This document shows, one piece after another, positions 13,213 through 20,579 of a stretch of 38,612 nt of DNA. Every line of letters starts with the position of its first letter. Position 1 is the first letter of the stretch. This DNA is from Sanguibacter inulinus (GTDB taxonomy: Bacteria > Actinomycetota > Actinomycetes > Actinomycetales > Cellulomonadaceae): contig NZ_JACBYE010000042.1 in assembly GCF_013415325.1 (NCBI RefSeq), forward strand, positions 1-38,612, written 5' to 3'. The notes below the pieces were generated by a model. That model was not told the origin of the DNA and did no database searches. It saw nothing but the letters and a program-made list of their open reading frames with translations. The translations under genes were made by a program, and so were the position numbers.

Positions 13213-14223
13213 ATGACGCACACCGATCACACCTCGCACGGCTCGGGCCCCGCCGGGCACTCCGGCAGTGGCGCTCGCGACCACGGCAGCACCGGCAGCG
13301 CGCACGACGCCAGCGCTCACGTGGCCCACGGGGCCCACAGCCACGGCGCCCACGCTGCTCATAGCCACGCCGACCGCCCCGGCCACGGCCCGGCACCTGA
13401 GGGCGACTCGGACATGGCTGAGCTCCTCGACCTCGACGCCGCACTTGGAGCGACAGTCCTCACCGACGCTCTCGACGCCGCGGCGGCCGTCCTCGGTACC
13501 GAGCCTCGCAGCATCGTCGACCTCGGCGCAGGGACCGGCACAGGCACCCTGGCGCTCGCGGGCCGCTTCCCGGAGGCCCACGTCCACAGCCTCGACGCGA
13601 CGGCCTCGATGCTCGACCACCTCACGGCGAGCGCCCAGACCGCCGGAGTCGGCGACCGTGTGACCACCCACCTCACCGACCTCGACGGTGACTGGACCGC
13701 CGTGCTGCCCGAGCAGGTCGACCTCGCGTGGGCCGCGCTCTCGCTGCACCACGTGAGCGACCCCGCGCGCGTGCTGCGCCAGGCCTATGGCGCGCTGCGT
13801 CCTGGGGGAGTGCTGGTCGTGACGGAGATGAGTGGCGCCCGGTTCGAGCCGAGCGACCTCGGCTCGGGACGCGACGGCCTCGGTGACCGCGTGACGGCCG
13901 CGCTCGCCGGGCACGGCTACCCCGTGACCGCCGAGTGGACCACCGCGCTCGGCGAGGCGTGCTTCGCCCCCGTCGAGCGCCACGAGATGTCCTTCGACGC
14001 GTCCGCAACCACGGCAGAGGGCGCGCGGTACCTCGCGATCCAGCTGTCGAGGAACCGGGACAGGATCGCCGACGACCTCTCCGCAGACGATCTTGCCGCG
14101 CTCGACGCCGTCATCCTCGCGCTGGGCGCCGGGACCTCAGAGGTGCGGACAGTCTCGGGCCGCAACGTCTGGGTCGCCGTGCGACCGCTCGACACCATGA
14201 CCCACGAAGGAGCAGACCGATGA
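13213..14223 (+). CDS. SAM-dependent methyltransferase with histidine-rich N-terminus
   Basis: 336-aa class I methyltransferase. Motif I IVDLGAGTGTGTLAL lies about residue 101, followed by HVHSLDATASMLDHL (motif II) and later LAWAALSLHHVSDPARVLRQAYGALRPGGVLVVTE. The first 58 residues carry 14 histidines in a low-complexity stretch (SHGAHAAHSH and similar), a likely metal-binding tail. ATG 13213 is preceded by TAGCGT (13200-13205), so the transcript may begin at the start codon; GGAGG is only two bases away. Its last four bases overlap the flavoprotein gene (ATGA), so the two form an operon. The methyl acceptor is unknown. Confidence 0.9.
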   Translation: MTHTDHTSHGSGPAGHSGSGARDHGSTGSAHDASAHVAHGAHSHGAHAAHSHADRPGHGPAPEGDSDMAELLDLDAALGATVLTDALDAAAAVLGTEPRSIVDLGAGTGTGTLALAGRFPEAHVHSLDATASMLDHLTASAQTAGVGDRVTTHLTDLDGDWTAVLPEQVDLAWAALSLHHVSDPARVLRQAYGALRPGGVLVVTEMSGARFEPSDLGSGRDGLGDRVTAALAGHGYPVTAEWTTALGEACFAPVERHEMSFDASATTAEGARYLAIQLSRNRDRIADDLSADDLAALDAVILALGAGTSEVRTVSGRNVWVAVRPLDTMTHEGADR

Positions 14224-15284
14224 CCCCAGACCTGACTGCCGTATCCTCGACAGCCGACCCGAGCACCACCCTGACCGCAGACGTCGTCGTGGTCGGGGGT
14301 GGTGCCGCGGGCCTGGCTGCCGCGATCGCGCTCGGCCGCTCACGCCGCAGCGTCGTCCTCGTCGACGCGGGCGAACCCCGCAACGCCCCGGCCGAGGGCG
14401 CGCACAACGTGCTCGGCCAGGAGGGCATCTCGCCCCTCGAGCTGCTGGCCCGCGGCCGTGCTGAGGCCGAGGCCTACGGTGTCCGTCTCGTCAGTGGCCG
14501 CGTGACAGGCGCGTCGGGAGTGGTCGACAGCTTCACGCTCGAGATCGACGGTGCGCCGGTCGCCAGCACCACCCAGCAGGTGACCGCGCGCCGCGTGATC
14601 CTCGCGACCGGCCTCGTCGACGAGCTGCCCGACGTCCCCGGTGTCGCGCAGGCTTGGGGTCACACAGTCCTGCACTGCCCGTACTGCCACGGCTGGGAGG
14701 TCCGGGACCAGCGCATCGCCGTGCTCGCCACCTCCGAGAACGCCCTGCACCAGGTGATGCTGTTCCGTCAGCTGAGCGACGACGTCACGCTGTTCTTGCA
14801 CGACGCCCCCGAGCCGACTGAGGAGCAGTGGGATCAGCTCGCGGCCCTCGGGGTGCGGGTCGTGACGCCGCGGGTCGAGCGGCTGGTGGTGGACGGGACG
14901 CAGGTGCGCGCCGTCGAGGTCGAGGGAGGTCGGTCCTTCGCGGTCGACGCCGTGGCGGTCGGACCGAGGTTCATCGCCCGGACCGAGCTCTACGAGGCGC
15001 TCGGCGGGGAGAAGACCCTCTCGCCCTTCGGCGAGCAGATCGTCGCCGACCCCCGCGGGGCGACGGCCGTCCCCGGGGTGTGGGTCGCCGGCAACTCGGG
15101 TGACCTCATGGCGATGGTCGCGGCCGCCGCAGCCTCGGGAGTCATGGCAGGAGCAGCCGTCAACGGCGACCTCGCCGTAGCCGACCTCGCCCGCGCTGTC
15201 GCCGAGCGCCGCGCCCCGTTCTCCGCAGCGATGGAGTCCGAGGTGGCCCTGGCTGTAGCCGGAGACCGCCGCCACGGCCTCTGA
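14220..15284 (+). CDS. Thioredoxin-reductase-like FAD/NAD(P) flavoprotein with CPYC
   Basis: 354-aa pyridine nucleotide-disulfide oxidoreductase of the low-molecular-weight thioredoxin reductase type. It has the FAD loop VVVVGGGAAGLAAAIALGRS about residue 22, the redox pair C153-P-Y-C156 in LHCPYCHGWEVRD, and the closing FAD motif GVWVAGNSGDLMAMVAAAAASG. This CPYC-HGWE type differs from classical TrxB (CATC) and lacks an obvious thioredoxin partner here. GAAGGAG precedes ATG 14220, which overlaps the methyltransferase stop. Pairing with a methyltransferase and an XRE-cupin regulator suggests a redox or metal-stress operon; this is inference. Confidence 0.92.
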   Translation: MTPDLTAVSSTADPSTTLTADVVVVGGGAAGLAAAIALGRSRRSVVLVDAGEPRNAPAEGAHNVLGQEGISPLELLARGRAEAEAYGVRLVSGRVTGASGVVDSFTLEIDGAPVASTTQQVTARRVILATGLVDELPDVPGVAQAWGHTVLHCPYCHGWEVRDQRIAVLATSENALHQVMLFRQLSDDVTLFLHDAPEPTEEQWDQLAALGVRVVTPRVERLVVDGTQVRAVEVEGGRSFAVDAVAVGPRFIARTELYEALGGEKTLSPFGEQIVADPRGATAVPGVWVAGNSGDLMAMVAAAAASGVMAGAAVNGDLAVADLARAVAERRAPFSAAMESEVALAVAGDRRHGL

Positions 15285-15301: not shown

Positions 15302-15495
15302 CGAGGTCGCCCCTGCCCAGACGAGGTCGTACCCGCTGCCGCGAGGTCGTACAGACACGCCAGCCACGGGCGTCTGGCGGGTGATGTTGGCGTGTCTGTA
15401 CGACCTCGGCGCAAGGGGTACGACCTCGGCGCAAGGGGTGCGACTTCGGCGCAGCGGGTGCGACCTCGGCGCGCGGAGGGCTCGGCGCGACCTCG
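15302..15495. repeat. Intergenic palindromic element A: 20-bp-period AGGTCG units around a 21-bp stem
   Basis: CGAGGTCG occurs at 15302, 15322 and 15342, exactly 20 bp apart. The third is fused to GTACAGACACGCCA, forming a perfect 21-bp arm (15342-15362). The reverse complement follows at 15388-15408 after a 25-base loop. Then CGAC(C/T)TCGGCGC units run at 15401, 15421, 15441 and 15461, again 20 bp apart, with a further CGACCTCG at 15488. It lies between convergent genes, so a bidirectional terminator role is possible. A second element with the same plan is at 19171-19317. Confidence 0.92.
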
Positions 15496-15498
15496 GGG

Positions 15499-15660
15499 TC
15501 AGCTGATCCCCGGGTCGCGGGACAGGAAGTCGATGTTCTCGGCGGCCCAGGGGAAGACCCAGACGAACAGCGCGGCGACGACGGCCGCGATCAGCGCGAG
15601 CGCGAGCAGGATCCGTACGGGCAGCGGCCCGGGCAGGTGCCGGAAGATCCACGGGTACAT
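15499..15660 (-). CDS. Small membrane protein translated with the sortase
   Basis: 53-aa protein beginning MYPWIFRHLPGPLPVR, with one membrane helix about residues 16-36 (ILLALALIAAVVAALFVWVF) and a short tail ENIDFLSRDPGIS. The form (W-x-x-x-HLPG at the start, FPW after the helix) matches a conserved small membrane protein found next to class E sortases in many actinobacteria, which has no established function. Its ATG overlaps the sortase stop by one base (TGATG), so translation is coupled. A helper of the sortase or its substrate in the membrane is a reasonable guess. Confidence 0.82.
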   Translation of the reverse strand: MYPWIFRHLPGPLPVRILLALALIAAVVAALFVWVFPWAAENIDFLSRDPGIS

Positions 15661-16433
15661 CAGACGACTCCTGGGTTCTCGAGGACCTGCTCGGGCATGC
15701 CGTCGGCGCGAGGCATCCAGCCGACGAACTTTGCGTAGGTGATCCAGCGGTGGTCGTTCCCGTACTCGCCGAGCGAGAGTGAGTGGCAGGTGGTCAGCGT
15801 GAGCATCCGCTCGGTCGGCGCAACGCCCGGCTGGTTCGGCACAGGCGCGGTGACCTCGATGGCGCTCGGCAGCACGATCTCGTGGGACGTCACCTCGTAG
15901 ACGTACCAGGCCTCGGCGGTCTCGACGATCACCTGGTCACCCTCGACCAGCTCGTTGACGTACCTGAAGGAGTTCCCGTAGGTCCGGCGGTGGCCGGCGA
16001 GCGCGAAGTTGCCCACCTCGCCGACCTGCTGCGTGTGCTCGTAGTGACCAGCCGTCGCACGGTCGAGGAGGTCGAGCGATGTCCCCTCGACGATCGGCAT
16101 GGTGTTGTTCGTCTTGCCGTACCAGCTGGGGACGATCAGCACCCCTGTCGTCTCCCCGTAGGCAGCCTTGGCGGGCACCGGAGGGTCGTCGGTCCGCAGC
16201 TCGGCGACGACCTCGGGAGCAGGCGGGAGCGTGTCCTGGAACTCTTCGACCAGCTGGGCGGCCTCGTTGTTCGCCTCGACGCTCGTCCACCACAGCTGCC
16301 ACACGACGAAGAGCCCGATGACCAGACCAGCGGTGATGAGGAGCTCGCCGATGCCGCCGAGGATCGCGGAACCGACACCACCGCGGCTGCGCTCGCCGGG
16401 CGCTGTGCGCTCACGGGTCTTCTGGTGTCTCAC
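15660..16433 (-). CDS. Class E sortase
   Basis: 257-aa membrane transpeptidase that attaches LPXTG-like (class E often LAXTG) surface proteins to the cell wall. After a basic cytosolic N-terminus there is one membrane segment about residues 23-48, then an outer stalk and the sortase barrel. The catalytic residues are visible: H148 in FALAGHRRTYG, C216 in LTLTTCHSLS and R229 in GNDHRW. GTG 16433 is the start, with GGAGGAG eight bases upstream. No LPXTG or LAXTG substrate is encoded in the window. It is translated together with the 53-aa membrane protein. Confidence 0.94.
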   Translation of the reverse strand: MRHQKTRERTAPGERSRGGVGSAILGGIGELLITAGLVIGLFVVWQLWWTSVEANNEAAQLVEEFQDTLPPAPEVVAELRTDDPPVPAKAAYGETTGVLIVPSWYGKTNNTMPIVEGTSLDLLDRATAGHYEHTQQVGEVGNFALAGHRRTYGNSFRYVNELVEGDQVIVETAEAWYVYEVTSHEIVLPSAIEVTAPVPNQPGVAPTERMLTLTTCHSLSLGEYGNDHRWITYAKFVGWMPRADGMPEQVLENPGVV

Positions 16434-16495
16434 CTGGGGTGCTCCTCCGCGTGGCAGCCTCGTCCGGCTGCCGAGTATGCCACGGCGACCTGACG

Positions 16496-16640
16496 ACGGT
16501 CTGGCGACGCCTCGGCCTGAGGACAGGTGGCCTTCTCCACAGGAACGTCGCCACGGTCTGGCGACGCCTCCGTCAGGGGACGGGCGGCTTCCTCCACAGG
16601 TGGTGGCGCGTCAACCTGTGGACGAATCCCCTTCTCCACA
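16496..16640. repeat. 57-bp direct repeat with four CTCCACA/DnaA-box-like motifs
   Basis: ACGGTCTGGCGACGCCTC occurs at 16496 and 16553, 57 bp apart, each followed in register by a CTCCACAGG motif (16535-16543, 16592-16600). Two more related motifs follow: TGTGGACGA (16618-16626) and TTCTCCACA (16632-16640). TTCTCCACA differs from the actinobacterial DnaA box TTGTCCACA by one base. No replication genes are nearby, so this is not called an origin. Confidence 0.7.
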
Positions 16641-16652
16641 GGGAGTCGAGCG

Positions 16653-16703
16653 GCTCAGGTCTCCCGACCGCTCAGCTCTCCCGGTGCCTCAGTCTCGCGA
16701 CGG
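16653..16703. repeat. Three 17-bp tandem repeats across the ndh stop codon
   Basis: Units at 16653, 16670 and 16687 share the pattern GCTCAG.TCTCCCG. The third contains the NDH-2 stop codon and last codons; the other two lie downstream of the gene. It is the same arrangement as the 35-bp array at the lacI end. Confidence 0.65.
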
Positions 16704-18029
16704 CTCGGCCGGCGGCGTCTCGCGCTCCTCGGAGGGCTCGCCCCGGCCCGTGCTCTCGCGGTCCTCGCGCGAGGGGCGGATGGTCGGCACGTCGCCGACG
16801 ATCGGGATCTGCTTGCGGTGGAAGGGGAACCCGTACCGCGTGACGATCCCGGCGAGGGTCGTGAGGCGGTTGCGCGGCCCGATGAGGCCCATGATGTGCA
16901 CGAACAGCCACGCGAGCCATGCCGTCCCACGGGTCAGCTGGACCTTGCCGAGGATGTCGGCGATCGCGGCGCGGCGACCGATCACAGCCATCGTGCCCTT
17001 GTCGAAGTACCTCAGGTGCTTCATCGGCCTGCCGTCGATGAGCGCGAGGATGTTCTTGGCGGCCTGCGTCCCGGACTGGATGGCGGGCTGCGCGAGCTGC
17101 GGCAGGTCGTCGGGCGTGATCGCGATGTCGCCCACAGCGAAGACCCCGGGGCGTCCGTCCACCTGGAGATCGCGACCCACGACCACGCGGTCACCAGCGC
17201 CGCGCGGGAGGTCCCAGGCGTCGACCTCCTCGTGCGGGCGCACGCCCGTCGACCAGATGGTCAGGTCCGAGTGGAGCTTGGTGCCGTCGGTGAGCACGAC
17301 CCCGTCGGGGTGGACCTCGGCGACCCCTGCGCCCAGGTGGAGCTTGACGTTGCGACGCTCGAGCTCGGAGACCGTGTACTCCCGCAGACGCTTCGGGAAC
17401 GACTTGAGCACCTCGGTGCCGCGCTGGACGATCGTCACCTCGAAGGCGTCACCACGGATCTCCGGGTAGGCAGGCCGCAGACCTGCGTTGCGCAGCTCGG
17501 CGAAGGCCCCGGCGACCTCGACACCCGTCGCTCCGCCGCCGACGACGACCACGCGGAGACCGTCGTCGGTGCCCGGGGTGTGCGCGGCTTCTTCGAGGCG
17601 GACGAAGAGCGCGTCGCGGATCTTGACGGCCTGGCTGCGCGAGTACATGGGGAAGGCGTTCTCCTTCGCACCGGGGGTGCCGAAGAAGTTGGTCGTCACG
17701 CCGTTGGCGAGCACCAGGTAGTCGAAGTCCATGTACTCGTCGTTGAGCAGACGGATGCGCTTGTTCGCGTGGTCGATGCTCGCCAGGTGCTCGTGGACCA
17801 CCCGGACGTTCTTCTGACCCAGGCGCAGACCGCGGAGGAAGTAGGTGACGTCCCCGGGGTTCAGGCCGCCGGTGGCCACCTGGTAGAGCAGCGGCTGGAA
17901 GGTGTTGTAGACGCGACGGTCGAGCAGGGTGACTCGGACGTTCGCGCCGGCGAACGCCCTGACGGCGGCGATGCCGGCGAAGCCACCTCCGACCACGACG
18001 ACGTGCGGGGCCTGGGTGGTCTGCGGCAC
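16689..18029 (-). CDS. ndh: Type II NADH:quinone dehydrogenase (NDH-2)
   Basis: 446-aa single-subunit NADH dehydrogenase that passes electrons from NADH to menaquinone at the inner membrane face without pumping protons. The N-terminal FAD loop is VVVVGGGFAGIAAVRAF (residues 10-26), the NADH-binding loop RVVVVGGGATGVEVAGAF lies about 165, and GVFAVGDIA about 300 closes the FAD site. The C-terminal part has the usual amphipathic membrane-contact region (WLAWLFVHIMGLIG). The tail after it, rich in E, R and P, is unusual. I chose GTG 18029 because GGAGGAG lies five bases upstream. Divergent from the YitT-type gene. Confidence 0.93.
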   Translation of the reverse strand: MPQTTQAPHVVVVGGGFAGIAAVRAFAGANVRVTLLDRRVYNTFQPLLYQVATGGLNPGDVTYFLRGLRLGQKNVRVVHEHLASIDHANKRIRLLNDEYMDFDYLVLANGVTTNFFGTPGAKENAFPMYSRSQAVKIRDALFVRLEEAAHTPGTDDGLRVVVVGGGATGVEVAGAFAELRNAGLRPAYPEIRGDAFEVTIVQRGTEVLKSFPKRLREYTVSELERRNVKLHLGAGVAEVHPDGVVLTDGTKLHSDLTIWSTGVRPHEEVDAWDLPRGAGDRVVVGRDLQVDGRPGVFAVGDIAITPDDLPQLAQPAIQSGTQAAKNILALIDGRPMKHLRYFDKGTMAVIGRRAAIADILGKVQLTRGTAWLAWLFVHIMGLIGPRNRLTTLAGIVTRYGFPFHRKQIPIVGDVPTIRPSREDRESTGRGEPSEERETPPAEPSRD

Positions 18030-18068
18030 GAGCTCTCCTCCGGGGGGTCGAGGCGTCCCGCTGCGGCG

Positions 18069-18111
18069 GGCGTCGTCTCTTACGCTACGACGCCTCCGGA
18101 CACCCTGCGAA
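18069..18111 (-). promoter_or_regulatory. ndh promoter with inverted repeat over the -10
   Basis: Minus-strand TTCGCA (18106-18111), 18 bp, then TAGCGT (18082-18087) is a plausible promoter. GGCGTCGT (18069-18076) and ACGACGCC (18087-18094) form an inverted repeat with 8-bp arms around the -10, a candidate operator. A smaller repeat, TGACA-GAG-TGTCA (18119-18131), lies just upstream. The rest of the 326-bp gap to 18355 shows nothing I recognise. Confidence 0.45.
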
Positions 18112-18355
18112 CTCGACATGACAGAGTGTCACCGGCATCACGTGAGAGGTCTGCGCGGGTGAAACTCCGGTAGGGACCGCGGTAGGCACCCGCCCGGGCC
18201 CTGAACCACCGTCAGCCTCGTCGCGAGACCGAGTGCGATGCTCCGAGCCGCTGCCGTCCCACGGGAGGTGACGGTCTGTCCGTATCGCGAGCACAGATCG
18301 ACCAGCAGGCGTGCACGGGGTGGCGTGCGCGGCCGGGGGCGCGCACGCTGCACCC

Positions 18356-19138
18356 GTGACAGACGAGAGCACGCCCTCCGCCGCCGCGCCCACACCGAGA
18401 CCGACGACGGGAGACGCGCCGCTCTCCGCAGCCTCAGCCCCCGGTCCGGGAGCGCCCGCCGCTCCCGACGGGGCTGCCGTTCCCGACGGGCCTGCCGCCC
18501 CCGTCCACGACGGCGCACCCGTCCCCGACCCCGTCGCGGACCTCGTCACCCGGCCGCACCGCCTGGTCGAAGACGTCGTCGCCCTGCTCATCGGTTCCCT
18601 CGCACTGTCCTTCGGGCTCATGCTGCTCAAGGACGTCGGCGGGGTGTCGGGCGGGATCGCGGGGATCGCCTTCCTCGTCAACTACTCGACGGGCTGGCCC
18701 TTCGGCCTCGTGTTCTTCCTCATCAACCTGCCGTTCTACGCCCTCGCGATCGTCCGGATGGGCTGGCCCTTCACCATCAAGACCTTCGCCGTCGTCGGGC
18801 TCATCTCCGTGCTCACCAGCTTCCACGCCGCGAACATCACCATCGAGCACATCACGCCGTTCTACGCCTGCGCGCTCGGCGGCATGTTCATGGGGCTGGC
18901 CTTCCTGGCGCTGTTCCGCCACGGGGCGAGCGCGGGCGGGCTCGGGATCTTCGTGTTCTACCTGCAAGACCGCTTCGGGGTCAGCGCCGGCGTCGTCCAG
19001 CTGTGCTTCGACGCCGTGATCGTCCTCTGCGCGCTCTTCGTCGCCGACGTCCCGACAGTCCTTGCGTCGGTCCTCGGCGTCGTGGTCCTCAACGTCATCC
19101 TCGCCATGAACCACCGCCCCGGCCGGTACCGGGCCTGA
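18356..19138 (+). CDS. YitT-family (DUF161) membrane protein
   Basis: About 260-aa membrane protein. The first 65 residues are an Ala/Pro/Ser-rich low-complexity tail (AAPTPRPTTGDAP, then PDGAAVPDGPAAPVHDGA), after which come about six membrane segments. VGGVSGGIAGIAFLVNYSTG and GASAGGLGIFVFYLQDRFGV are the typical paired YitT_membrane motifs. The C-terminal DUF2179 domain of longer YitT proteins is missing. Transport is presumed but no substrate is known. I chose GTG 18356; in-frame GTG codons at 18311 and nearby are possible and no good ribosome-binding site distinguishes them. It is followed by palindromic element B. Confidence 0.82.
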   Translation: MTDESTPSAAAPTPRPTTGDAPLSAASAPGPGAPAAPDGAAVPDGPAAPVHDGAPVPDPVADLVTRPHRLVEDVVALLIGSLALSFGLMLLKDVGGVSGGIAGIAFLVNYSTGWPFGLVFFLINLPFYALAIVRMGWPFTIKTFAVVGLISVLTSFHAANITIEHITPFYACALGGMFMGLAFLALFRHGASAGGLGIFVFYLQDRFGVSAGVVQLCFDAVIVLCALFVADVPTVLASVLGVVVLNVILAMNHRPGRYRA

Positions 19139-19170
19139 CTGACCGGTTCCCGTGCCGCACGCTCGTCGCA

Positions 19171-19317
19171 CGAGGTCGCACCCCGGGGCGCCAGGTCGCA
19201 CGCCCTGCACCGAGGTCGCATGGACACGCCACATGAGCTCAAACATGGGGTCTGGCCGGCGTGTCCGGGCGACCTCGGCTTCAGGGGTGCGACCTCGGCG
19301 GTCAGGGTGCGACCTGG
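19171..19317. repeat. Intergenic palindromic element B: same plan as element A
   Basis: CGAGGTCGCA at 19171, CAGGTCGCA at 19192 and CGAGGTCGCA at 19211 keep a 20-bp period. The third continues to GGACACGCC. After a loop of about 27 bases, GGCGTGTCC leads to CGACCTCGG at 19270 and 19290 and CGACCTGGG at 19310, again 20 bp apart. Stem bases, unit spacing and the loop word GTCTGGC agree with element A, while the rest of the loop differs. Also between convergent genes. Confidence 0.9.
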
Positions 19318-19391: not shown

Positions 19392-20579
19392 TCATGCGTC
19401 GACCGTCTCGCGCTCGCGGGCGGCGACGGCTGCGTCGATGCGGCGCTGGGTCGCGGCCTCGCGGCGGCGGCGGGACCGTCGCGCCAGCAGCACCAGGGCG
19501 ACCGCGAGGGCCACGAGCGCGAGCTGAGCCCACGGCACGGCCCACGCCGACCAGCCCGCGGAGACCTGCTGCACCTCGACCTCGACCACGTCGTCACCGA
19601 CGACCACCGGGATCACCGTGACGTCACCAGACATCCGGCCGAGCGGCCACGTCCCGTCGAGCACCACGGTCGACGTGGCGCTCTGGCCGGGCAGCAGCTC
19701 GCGCTGCGGGGTGCCCTCGGCCGAGGCCTCACCCCAGCCGAAGGGGCCCGATGCCTCCACAGCCGTCCCGGCGCCGAGCCGCACGTTGCCCTCGTTCGTC
19801 ACCGTGTAGTCGACCTCGACCGCACCGGCGGCGAAGGGGTTCCACGAGGACGCGTACGTCGCCTGGACGTCGGACACCGAGAGCGTGGGCACGACGTCCC
19901 CCGCAACCCGCAGGTGCAGGCGCACGCCGACGCGCGCGTCGAAGCTGACCTGCTGCTCGCCCGCAGCAGGCACGAGCGCGGCGACGATCCCGGCAGGGTG
20001 GTCGCCGGGTGTCGCGTCGGCAGGGACTGTCAGCGTGAAGGGGACTGTCACCGTCGCCTCGGGACCGACCTCGACGCGCAGAGGCGTCGAGCCCTCGGCG
20101 GCGGGGACCCCGCCCTCGCCGAGCGCGACCCAGGCGCCCGAGTCTGTCGGGGTGGCCCCGGCGGGCAGCAGGTCGAACTGGCCGTCGGCGGTGACCAGCC
20201 CGTCGCTCGCGTACAGCTCGAAGGTCGCGGGGTGTGCCGAGAAGTTGGTGACGGCGACGTGGTCGGCGACGGTCTGGCCCGGTTCAGCGTCGATGCGGTG
20301 CGAGACGCGCCCGTTGGGGCCGTCGGCTGTCGCGGGTTCGACTGTCCAGGTGGTCGAGCCGGCGGCGTCGTCGGTCGTCGAGGGGAGCGACGTGGCTGCG
20401 AGAGCAGAGAGTGCCGACCCGGCGGGTGCCGCGGGGGGCGCCGTCGCGGGGAGAGTCGAGAGCGCCGGTCCGGCGGGTGTCGCGCCCGCCGCAGGCAGCG
20501 CGACGGCTCCGGTGACGACGACTGCCGCGACAGCGGTCGAGACGAGCAGGTGGGCGGCGCGAGAGAGCTGAGAGGTCAT
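19392..20579 (-). CDS. Secreted membrane-anchored DUF916 (WxL peptidoglycan-binding) protein
   Basis: 395-aa exported protein. It has a signal peptide to about residue 33 (VTGAVALPAAGA), an Ala/Pro/Ser-rich linker, then a DUF916-type domain from about 78: TTWTVEPATADGPNGRVSH, TVADHVAVTNFSAHPATFELYASDG, and later TPGDHPAGIVAALVP. One membrane helix lies near the C-terminus (WAQLALVALAVALVLLARR), followed by a basic cytosolic tail. DUF916 proteins of Gram-positives occur with WxL surface proteins and are thought to bind peptidoglycan and host the WxL partner. The neighbouring phosphatase carries a WxL-like tail, which fits. ATG 20579 is the start; the frame upstream is open but lacks a signal sequence. 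Confidence 0.85.
   Translation of the reverse strand: MTSQLSRAAHLLVSTAVAAVVVTGAVALPAAGATPAGPALSTLPATAPPAAPAGSALSALAATSLPSTTDDAAGSTTWTVEPATADGPNGRVSHRIDAEPGQTVADHVAVTNFSAHPATFELYASDGLVTADGQFDLLPAGATPTDSGAWVALGEGGVPAAEGSTPLRVEVGPEATVTVPFTLTVPADATPGDHPAGIVAALVPAAGEQQVSFDARVGVRLHLRVAGDVVPTLSVSDVQATYASSWNPFAAGAVEVDYTVTNEGNVRLGAGTAVEASGPFGWGEASAEGTPQRELLPGQSATSTVVLDGTWPLGRMSGDVTVIPVVVGDDVVEVEVQQVSAGWSAWAVPWAQLALVALAVALVLLARRSRRRREAATQRRIDAAVAARERETVDA

Follow-up and report, generated by a model that had tools for sequence, protein, structure and literature searches.

A family of mirror-image elements in Sanguibacter

The window analysed here, the 38,612-nucleotide contig NZ_JACBYE010000042.1 of Sanguibacter inulinus, holds two intergenic elements, A (15302-15468) and B (19171-19317), which belong to a dispersed family marked by rigid geometry, nearly uncoupled halves, conservation of the motifs only and a location behind gene ends. 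Judged from its letters, each element is probably a binding array on double-stranded DNA. The family plan is a series of GTRCGACCTCG units at a 20-bp step, the core GACACGCC, 27 bp of loop, the core GGCGTGTC and the mirrored units. Read from the middle outward, an arm consists of GGCGTGTC, one base and then GTRCGACCTCG units with starts 20 bp apart; as GGCGTGTC and the next base make nine bases, the size of the spacer between units, the core fills the spacer slot of the first 20-bp step.

Both elements had been proposed at these positions, with a 20-bp unit spacing, in an original prediction made from the sequence, and both were found there with unit starts 20 bp apart. Element A comprises three left units similar to GTRCGACCTCG (15302-15352, minus strand, at 15302-15312, 15322-15332 and 15342-15352), the left core GACACGCC (15354-15361, minus strand), a 27-bp loop of fixed length and unconserved sequence (15362-15388), the right core GGCGTGTC (15389-15396, plus strand) and four right units (15398-15468, plus strand, at 15398-15408, 15418-15428, 15438-15448 and 15458-15468). 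Element B has three units on each side: left units on the minus strand (19171-19221, at 19171-19181, 19191-19201 and 19211-19221), the left core GACACGCC (19223-19230, minus strand), the 27-bp loop (19231-19257), the right core GGCGTGTC (19258-19265, plus strand) and right units on the plus strand (19267-19317, at 19267-19277, 19287-19297 and 19307-19317). The elements as wholes and their loops carry no strand. The predicted extent of B stands; that of A, given as 15302-15495, shrinks to its in-phase units, an extra CGACCTCG near 15487 being out of phase and excluded. Likewise the loop is present as predicted, and its length is exactly 27 in both elements and not about 25. The GTCTGGC found in both loops is not typical of the family, whose copies are 32% identical in the mid-loop.

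A search of the genome holding the window (G000; 4,259,108 bases in 109 contigs) gave 25 exact dyads and none of the reversed control pattern, so the dyad is not due to chance. Allowing mismatches but requiring flanking units raises the number of intact copies to 36, with one to nine units per arm; two damaged copies (one on contig C17 and units on C16, 57176-57247) were not counted, and the candidate L032:16106 was dropped as chance. The unit pattern marks 20 places in the single-contig genome taken as that of S. keddieii (G205), which a script resolved into 18 intact and two damaged copies, the latter (at 1.287 and 3.592 Mb) being left out of counts. The loop is 27 bases long in 34 of the 36 G000 copies (26 in the other two) and in 17 of 18 S. 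keddieii copies, and over 108 arms the second unit matches at exactly +20 in 100 cases and at +19 in two. By the original prediction a dispersed functional family would be unlikely if the genome held these two copies only and close relatives lacked them; what was found is 36 intact copies, with gaps shared by S. keddieii. Three of the 36 end within about 60 bp of draft contig ends, namely L036 (C68:80), L042 (C85:12289) and L044 (C88:9427), perhaps owing to a repeat or insertion alongside.

Conservation between sister species

Eight of the 20 S. keddieii places share both neighbours with a G000 copy (seven intact, one damaged in both species), and one more shares a single neighbour. Pairwise comparison was made over the seven intact copy pairs in gaps with both neighbours common to the two species, leaving out L044/L084 (not the same gap) and element B/L082 (one common neighbour). 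Letters agree at 107 of 112 core positions, 144 of 154 in the first unit and 119 of 154 in the second, compared with 58/126 and 50/126 in the spacers and 30/85 in the mid-loop. The baseline from unrelated copies is 0.35-0.36 for spacers and 0.32-0.33 for the mid-loop, and four-fold sites of 11 neighbouring gene pairs agree at 67%, with a floor of 44%. The same gaps have thus kept the motif while nearly everything between its parts was rewritten. Inversion of the loop between the sister species was rejected as the reverse complement matches no better overall.

The motif itself has shifted between the two species. In G000 the first unit has A at its R position in 51 of 72 arms, compared with nine of 36 in S. 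keddieii (p=1e-5); for the base that follows the core, Y is found in 69 of 72 arms in G000 and in 24 of 36 in S. keddieii (p=9e-5). A preference that moves jointly in all copies suggests a changing reader. When element B (19171-19317) is set against L082, the S. keddieii copy is seen to keep the right-hand gene and to have another left-hand gene, so that the element seems to have outlived the exchange of one neighbour.

DNA motif or RNA stem

Had selection kept the mirror for the sake of an RNA stem, changes in one arm should be accompanied by pairing changes in the other, and over the 36 copies they mostly are not. Mirror pairing holds in 86.1% of cells vs. 85.5% after shuffling, with 85 of 500 shuffles reaching the observed value, and the free position beside the core has a mirror match in 16 of the 36 copies vs. 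16.7 expected. The dyad and units are thus conserved independently of pairing and at rigid spacing, as would be looked for in a dispersed protein-binding chromosomal site. Compensatory changes of the kind expected of an intrinsic terminator are lacking in Sanguibacter and in lineage g4 (genomes G078, G079 and G084), which has no palindromic covarying interior, no outer positions coupled as in g9 and no overall pair coupling; they are present in g21 and partly in g9. The rigid spacing, the nearly independent halves and the conservation of core and units only point to recognition of double-stranded DNA by a protein, presumably with cooperative outward assembly, over RNA pairing. The earlier proposal of protein binding on one DNA face thereby gains indirect support from the uncoupled half-sites, the rigid spacing and the selective conservation.

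Placement relative to genes and origin

Both window elements lie in convergent gaps directly behind a plus-strand gene, as was originally noted, and this placement is common in the two species. Among the 33 G000 copies with genes called on both sides, 21 lie between convergent genes, nine in '--' and two in '++' gaps and one between divergent genes, compared with 22 convergent and 55 divergent among the 178 remaining gaps of 80 bp or more in these loci. S. keddieii has 13 of 17 copies between convergent genes and none between divergent ones (other gaps, n=98: 12 convergent, 30 divergent). These counts omit copies with no called neighbour on one side (three of 36 in G000, one of 18 in S. keddieii); genes were called by a purpose-written script, and the calls were judged by plausibility only. 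A role as promoter site was rejected on two grounds: G000 has no orphan half-sites (at most two mismatches), and one of the 33 scorable copies stands between divergent genes.

Proposed assembly and function

According to the model that we favour, a symmetric complex would dock on the dyad, on two GGCGTGTC half-sites at fixed distance, and further subunits would add outward on the tandem GTRCGACCTCG units, one per 20 bp. As the 20-bp step is about two helical turns, all subunits would lie on one DNA face, and the resulting nucleoprotein patch would span about 90-365 bp. The computation shows dispersed dyads with phased arrays, kept by selection and read in Sanguibacter as double-stranded DNA; we infer that a protein binds, that it does so cooperatively, polymerising on the elements, and that the binder is encoded in the genome. 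The most likely job, put forward tentatively and short of an even chance, is that of an insulator or roadblock between converging genes, which would stop transcription and supercoiling from entering the neighbour; second in order comes a chromosome-organising site, a doubtful assignment.

Several observations weigh against a protein-binding array. Among the 26 mirrored positions in Sanguibacter, one is coupled (p=0.019 without correction) and another is borderline (p=0.054). As RNA the central dyad has a strong predicted fold (-51.1 and -45.1 kcal/mol), and any perfect palindrome folds strongly as RNA. In g21 the interior of the loop forms a palindrome with changes matched on both sides, as it does at some positions in g9, where five outer positions also give p ~0.03; these matched interiors and outer positions favour a hairpin there. 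The loop has diverged beyond four-fold sites, and the G166 copies are not mainly convergent (two of 11). Four of six Sanguibacter genomes are without the element by exact dyad, model and unit pattern, and such patchy occurrence is odd for a general architectural site. As for the binder, no single neighbour gene is common to the fetched loci of four genera, which cover part of the copies.

Genes beside divergent and tandem copies gave no further candidate for the binder. LacI-family regulators occupy five of 34 neighbour positions in g9 (L063, L065, L116, L118 and L120) vs. one of 47 other genes there and are about 30-44% identical to one another; among Sanguibacter neighbours there is one in 69, plus its S. 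keddieii match, one in 35. We take this adjacency as more probably a property of g9 than a sign of the binder.

A wider family with lineage dialects

The core dyad is also found in further genera and in other families of the order. With 20-34 bases between its halves it is present in 56 of 221 genomes of the family; when 15-40 bases are allowed, it is present in 102 of 396 genomes taken from the order. At least five matches were found in 27 genomes vs. two for the reversed control, and many single matches are probably due to chance; exact dyads range from 0 to 34 per genome. The Sanguibacter dialect itself was found in G000 and G205 only, model R1 giving much weaker matches, presumably to the common core, in 12 other genomes of the family. 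The same dialect pattern had 0 matches each in viral contigs and in genome contigs, a scan from which near genomes were perhaps left out.

Loop length is mostly set by lineage: 20-21 in g4, 20 in g9 and g21, 19 in 10 of 12 copies in G166 and in nine of 12 among the matches listed for G521, and 31 in 20 of 22 (G381) and 19 of 20 (G246). Each lineage also has its own mirrored outer motif, namely CTGGACTCTCGG (g4), GTGCACCCACAGCG (g9), CTGTACCCACARCG (g21), TGCGGTTCGACG (G166), TTGGCGACTC (G521) and, past a 9-bp gap, TCCGTTGCGACTGTCAGG (G381 and G246), with others in further lineages. By eye such a motif was seen in 16 of 17 compared matches (weakly in L139, not in L141). In G166 tandem copies of the outer unit follow one another every 31 bp: over 11 of its 12 dyads, the spacing is exactly 31 in 21 of 28 cases and 30-32 in 25. 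The 20-bp and 31-bp steps correspond to about two and three turns of the DNA helix, respectively.

The elements might, on a bolder and rather unlikely reading, form a patchy chromosomal addressing system over the actinobacterial order, a bacterial insulator with dialects. The invariant GACACGCC-dyad word would then be read by a conserved domain and the lineage-specific outer word by a fast-changing one, and the protein would polymerise in whole-turn steps (20 bp in Sanguibacter, 31 bp in G166), walling transcription units apart.

Alternative explanations

The elements could be bidirectional intrinsic terminators, in which the central hairpin ends either convergent transcript and the likeness between copies is inherited or spread by copying. 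We consider this unlikely, with evidence on both sides. The placement behind gene ends is what such terminators would have (21 of 33 copies convergent in G000, 13 of 17 in S. keddieii), copies in g9 and g21 often stand 20-50 bp past the stop codon, the dyad folds strongly, interiors covary in g21 and partly in g9, and in 36 of 54 element gaps it is the only strong hairpin. Nevertheless, Sanguibacter and g4 show no overall pair coupling, the motif is kept letter by letter with the loop length fixed, units outside the hairpin hold the 20-bp step, the stretch between core and outer motif is mostly non-pairing in G381, G246, G240 and G393, and the G166 copies do not sit mainly between convergent genes. 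Moreover, 18 of the 54 element gaps have a separate strong hairpin; such hairpins occur in 22 of 270 shuffled flanks and in half of the element-free convergent gaps (23 of 46). The 18 include the S. keddieii gap L097, extended to 12081 for want of a called gene on the right. Hence the element is accompanied by another hairpin in some gaps, although it could serve as terminator in the others. A terminator had been named as an alternative in the original prediction; it is not needed for all copies and is kept here as a rival, two genera having covarying interiors.

A chromosome-organising or segregation site, following the logic of Noc, MatP or SlmA and standing behind genes only because promoters are avoided, is also improbable. 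Dispersed dyads with cooperative-looking arrays would fit such a site, as would the excess near the origin in S. keddieii, where 16 of 20 places fall in the half of the genome closer to it (p=0.012; Rayleigh p=0.004), with the contig start taken as origin (translations there, recognised by reading only, are presumably dnaA and dnaN). On the other hand, the G166 copies look, by eye, spread around its single contig, occurrence is patchy, and we know of no matching consensus for a chromosome-organising site, which we count against it.

A selfish palindromic repeat of REP or MITE-like kind, spread by a transposase acting in trans, is less probable still. Its fixed size, its patchiness (0 to 34 exact dyads between genomes) and the finding of at most one candidate position common to genera in the fetched loci agree with it. 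That position is a gene with an element 3' of it in S. keddieii (L095:5478-6014) and in G146 (L115:3080-3613); other neighbours common to genera either differ in the side on which the element lies or are members of large groups of paralogues. Against a selfish repeat, old individual copies retain motif positions only, G000 has no half-sites at gene-sized distance, and the Y1 transposase (PF01797) was found in none of 20 genomes, of which ten are rich in the element and ten have few copies or none, compared with five of 14 control genomes; the element-bearing G166, G240, G246, G381, G393, G513, G521 and G545 were outside this search. For the 20 genomes REP/RAYT was therefore rejected, and with it fell the REP-like alternative first suggested for A and B. 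All 72 half-sites in G000 (at most two mismatches) fall in the 36 copies or the C17 remnant, so a transposon with the same ends, for which no orphan half-sites of the genome's own dialect were found at this threshold, was likewise rejected. S. keddieii has two orphan half-sites (2,650,550 and 2,787,555), with 3 and 2 matches there for the reversed control (at most three mismatches).

Finally, the elements could act at the RNA level, as arrays in the 3' ends of both convergent transcripts onto which, for example, a termination factor or an RNA-binding protein would load. Each converging transcript would read units and then the hairpin, and flanks look C-rich by eye in the transcript sense, but the rigid steps of 20 and 31 bp, close to whole turns of the helix, suit DNA better than a flexible RNA. 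This reading is very improbable. Rfam at gathering score, applied to the window and L016, L023, L045, L086 and L117, returned only three tRNAs, all in L016.

Comparison with known systems

The original prediction knew of no described family with this plan, and none was found in the open-licence literature, so the mirror-image family is apparently undescribed. Noc, SlmA and MatP act at dispersed specific sites on one chromosome, an arrangement shared by the element with its predicted binder; the element is far longer and differs in its mirrored tandem arrays and lineage-specific outer motif. Reb1 and TTF-I arrays are eukaryotic roadblock terminators, likewise sites or site arrays for a DNA-bound protein behind genes, whereas the present element is bacterial and two-sided, with a putative roadblock role. 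DNA uptake sequences in inverted pairs resemble it as inverted words behind genes with lineage dialects, but number about a thousand copies and not tens, and the element has phased arrays. Intrinsic bidirectional terminators share a hairpin-forming sequence between convergent genes; in Sanguibacter the element's letters are conserved without overall pair coupling, and its units lie outside the hairpin.

REP/BIME palindromes go with RAYT (Y1) transposases. They too are dispersed extragenic palindromes behind genes, from which the element differs in a much larger dyad, phased arrays, a loop random in sequence at fixed length and the lack of Y1 in the 20 genomes. REP/RAYT systems are marked by a GTAG or CGTC tag next to a palindrome of 20-40 bp (PMC3733652). 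In a CRISPR array, direct repeats alternate with spacers of about 30 bp and cas genes lie nearby; this possibility was rejected because of the 9-bp spacers and mirrored units, cas genes not having been searched. The S. keddieii genome paper gives 0 CRISPR repeats (PMC3035225).

If the protein-binding interpretation is right, a number of actinobacteria would each have, at the ends of genes, tens of patches nucleated by protein, of a kind for which we found no description. The invariant core with its lineage dialects would offer a comparative system for the co-evolution of a DNA-binding protein and its dispersed sites, and the use of protein insulators or roadblocks between converging genes in bacteria could be put to the test.

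Neighbouring genes and related sequences

The gene ending shortly 5' of element A (14220-15284, plus strand) encodes a pyridine nucleotide-disulphide oxidoreductase by Pfam match (longer open reading frame 13935-15284). Converging on A is a short predicted gene (15499-15660, minus strand) with a 71.7% identical match in S. keddieii, and behind it lies a sortase gene (15660-16433, minus strand). Element B follows the gene of a YitT-family membrane protein (18356-19138, plus strand), and the gene converging on it (19392-20579, minus strand) has an S. keddieii match that likewise adjoins an element. Among the named relatives found, the closest match of the YitT neighbour is in Sanguibacter suaedae (71% identity), where no element stands behind it and the rest of the window also has no blastn match.

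Many loops in G381 and G246 (L129, L130, L137, L158-L162) hold a common asymmetric word, about GCACGATGCGC, in either orientation, while Sanguibacter loops are random. Long near-perfect hairpins with GACACGCC ends occur at G205:C1:227660-227703, in L011, at G242:C14:101150 and at L138:1501; the L138 hairpin has outer motifs and a fully palindromic loop, and that of L011 lacks a recognised tandem unit.

A longer asymmetric sequence with GACACGCC-N21-GGCGTGTC and similar interior and flanks recurs in several genera (L164:3738, 6272; L165:69, 985; L166:3439, 14896; L167:4029; L169:3639; L170:3557; L171:3840; L172:3620; L173:1186). In L164, L165 and L166 two copies in the same orientation flank small sets of unrelated genes (in L164 an MFS gene and a sliding-clamp-like gene), and other copies lie near SAVED, OGG-like, DUF5677 or CAAX-protease genes. 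This sequence looks like a cassette recombination site.

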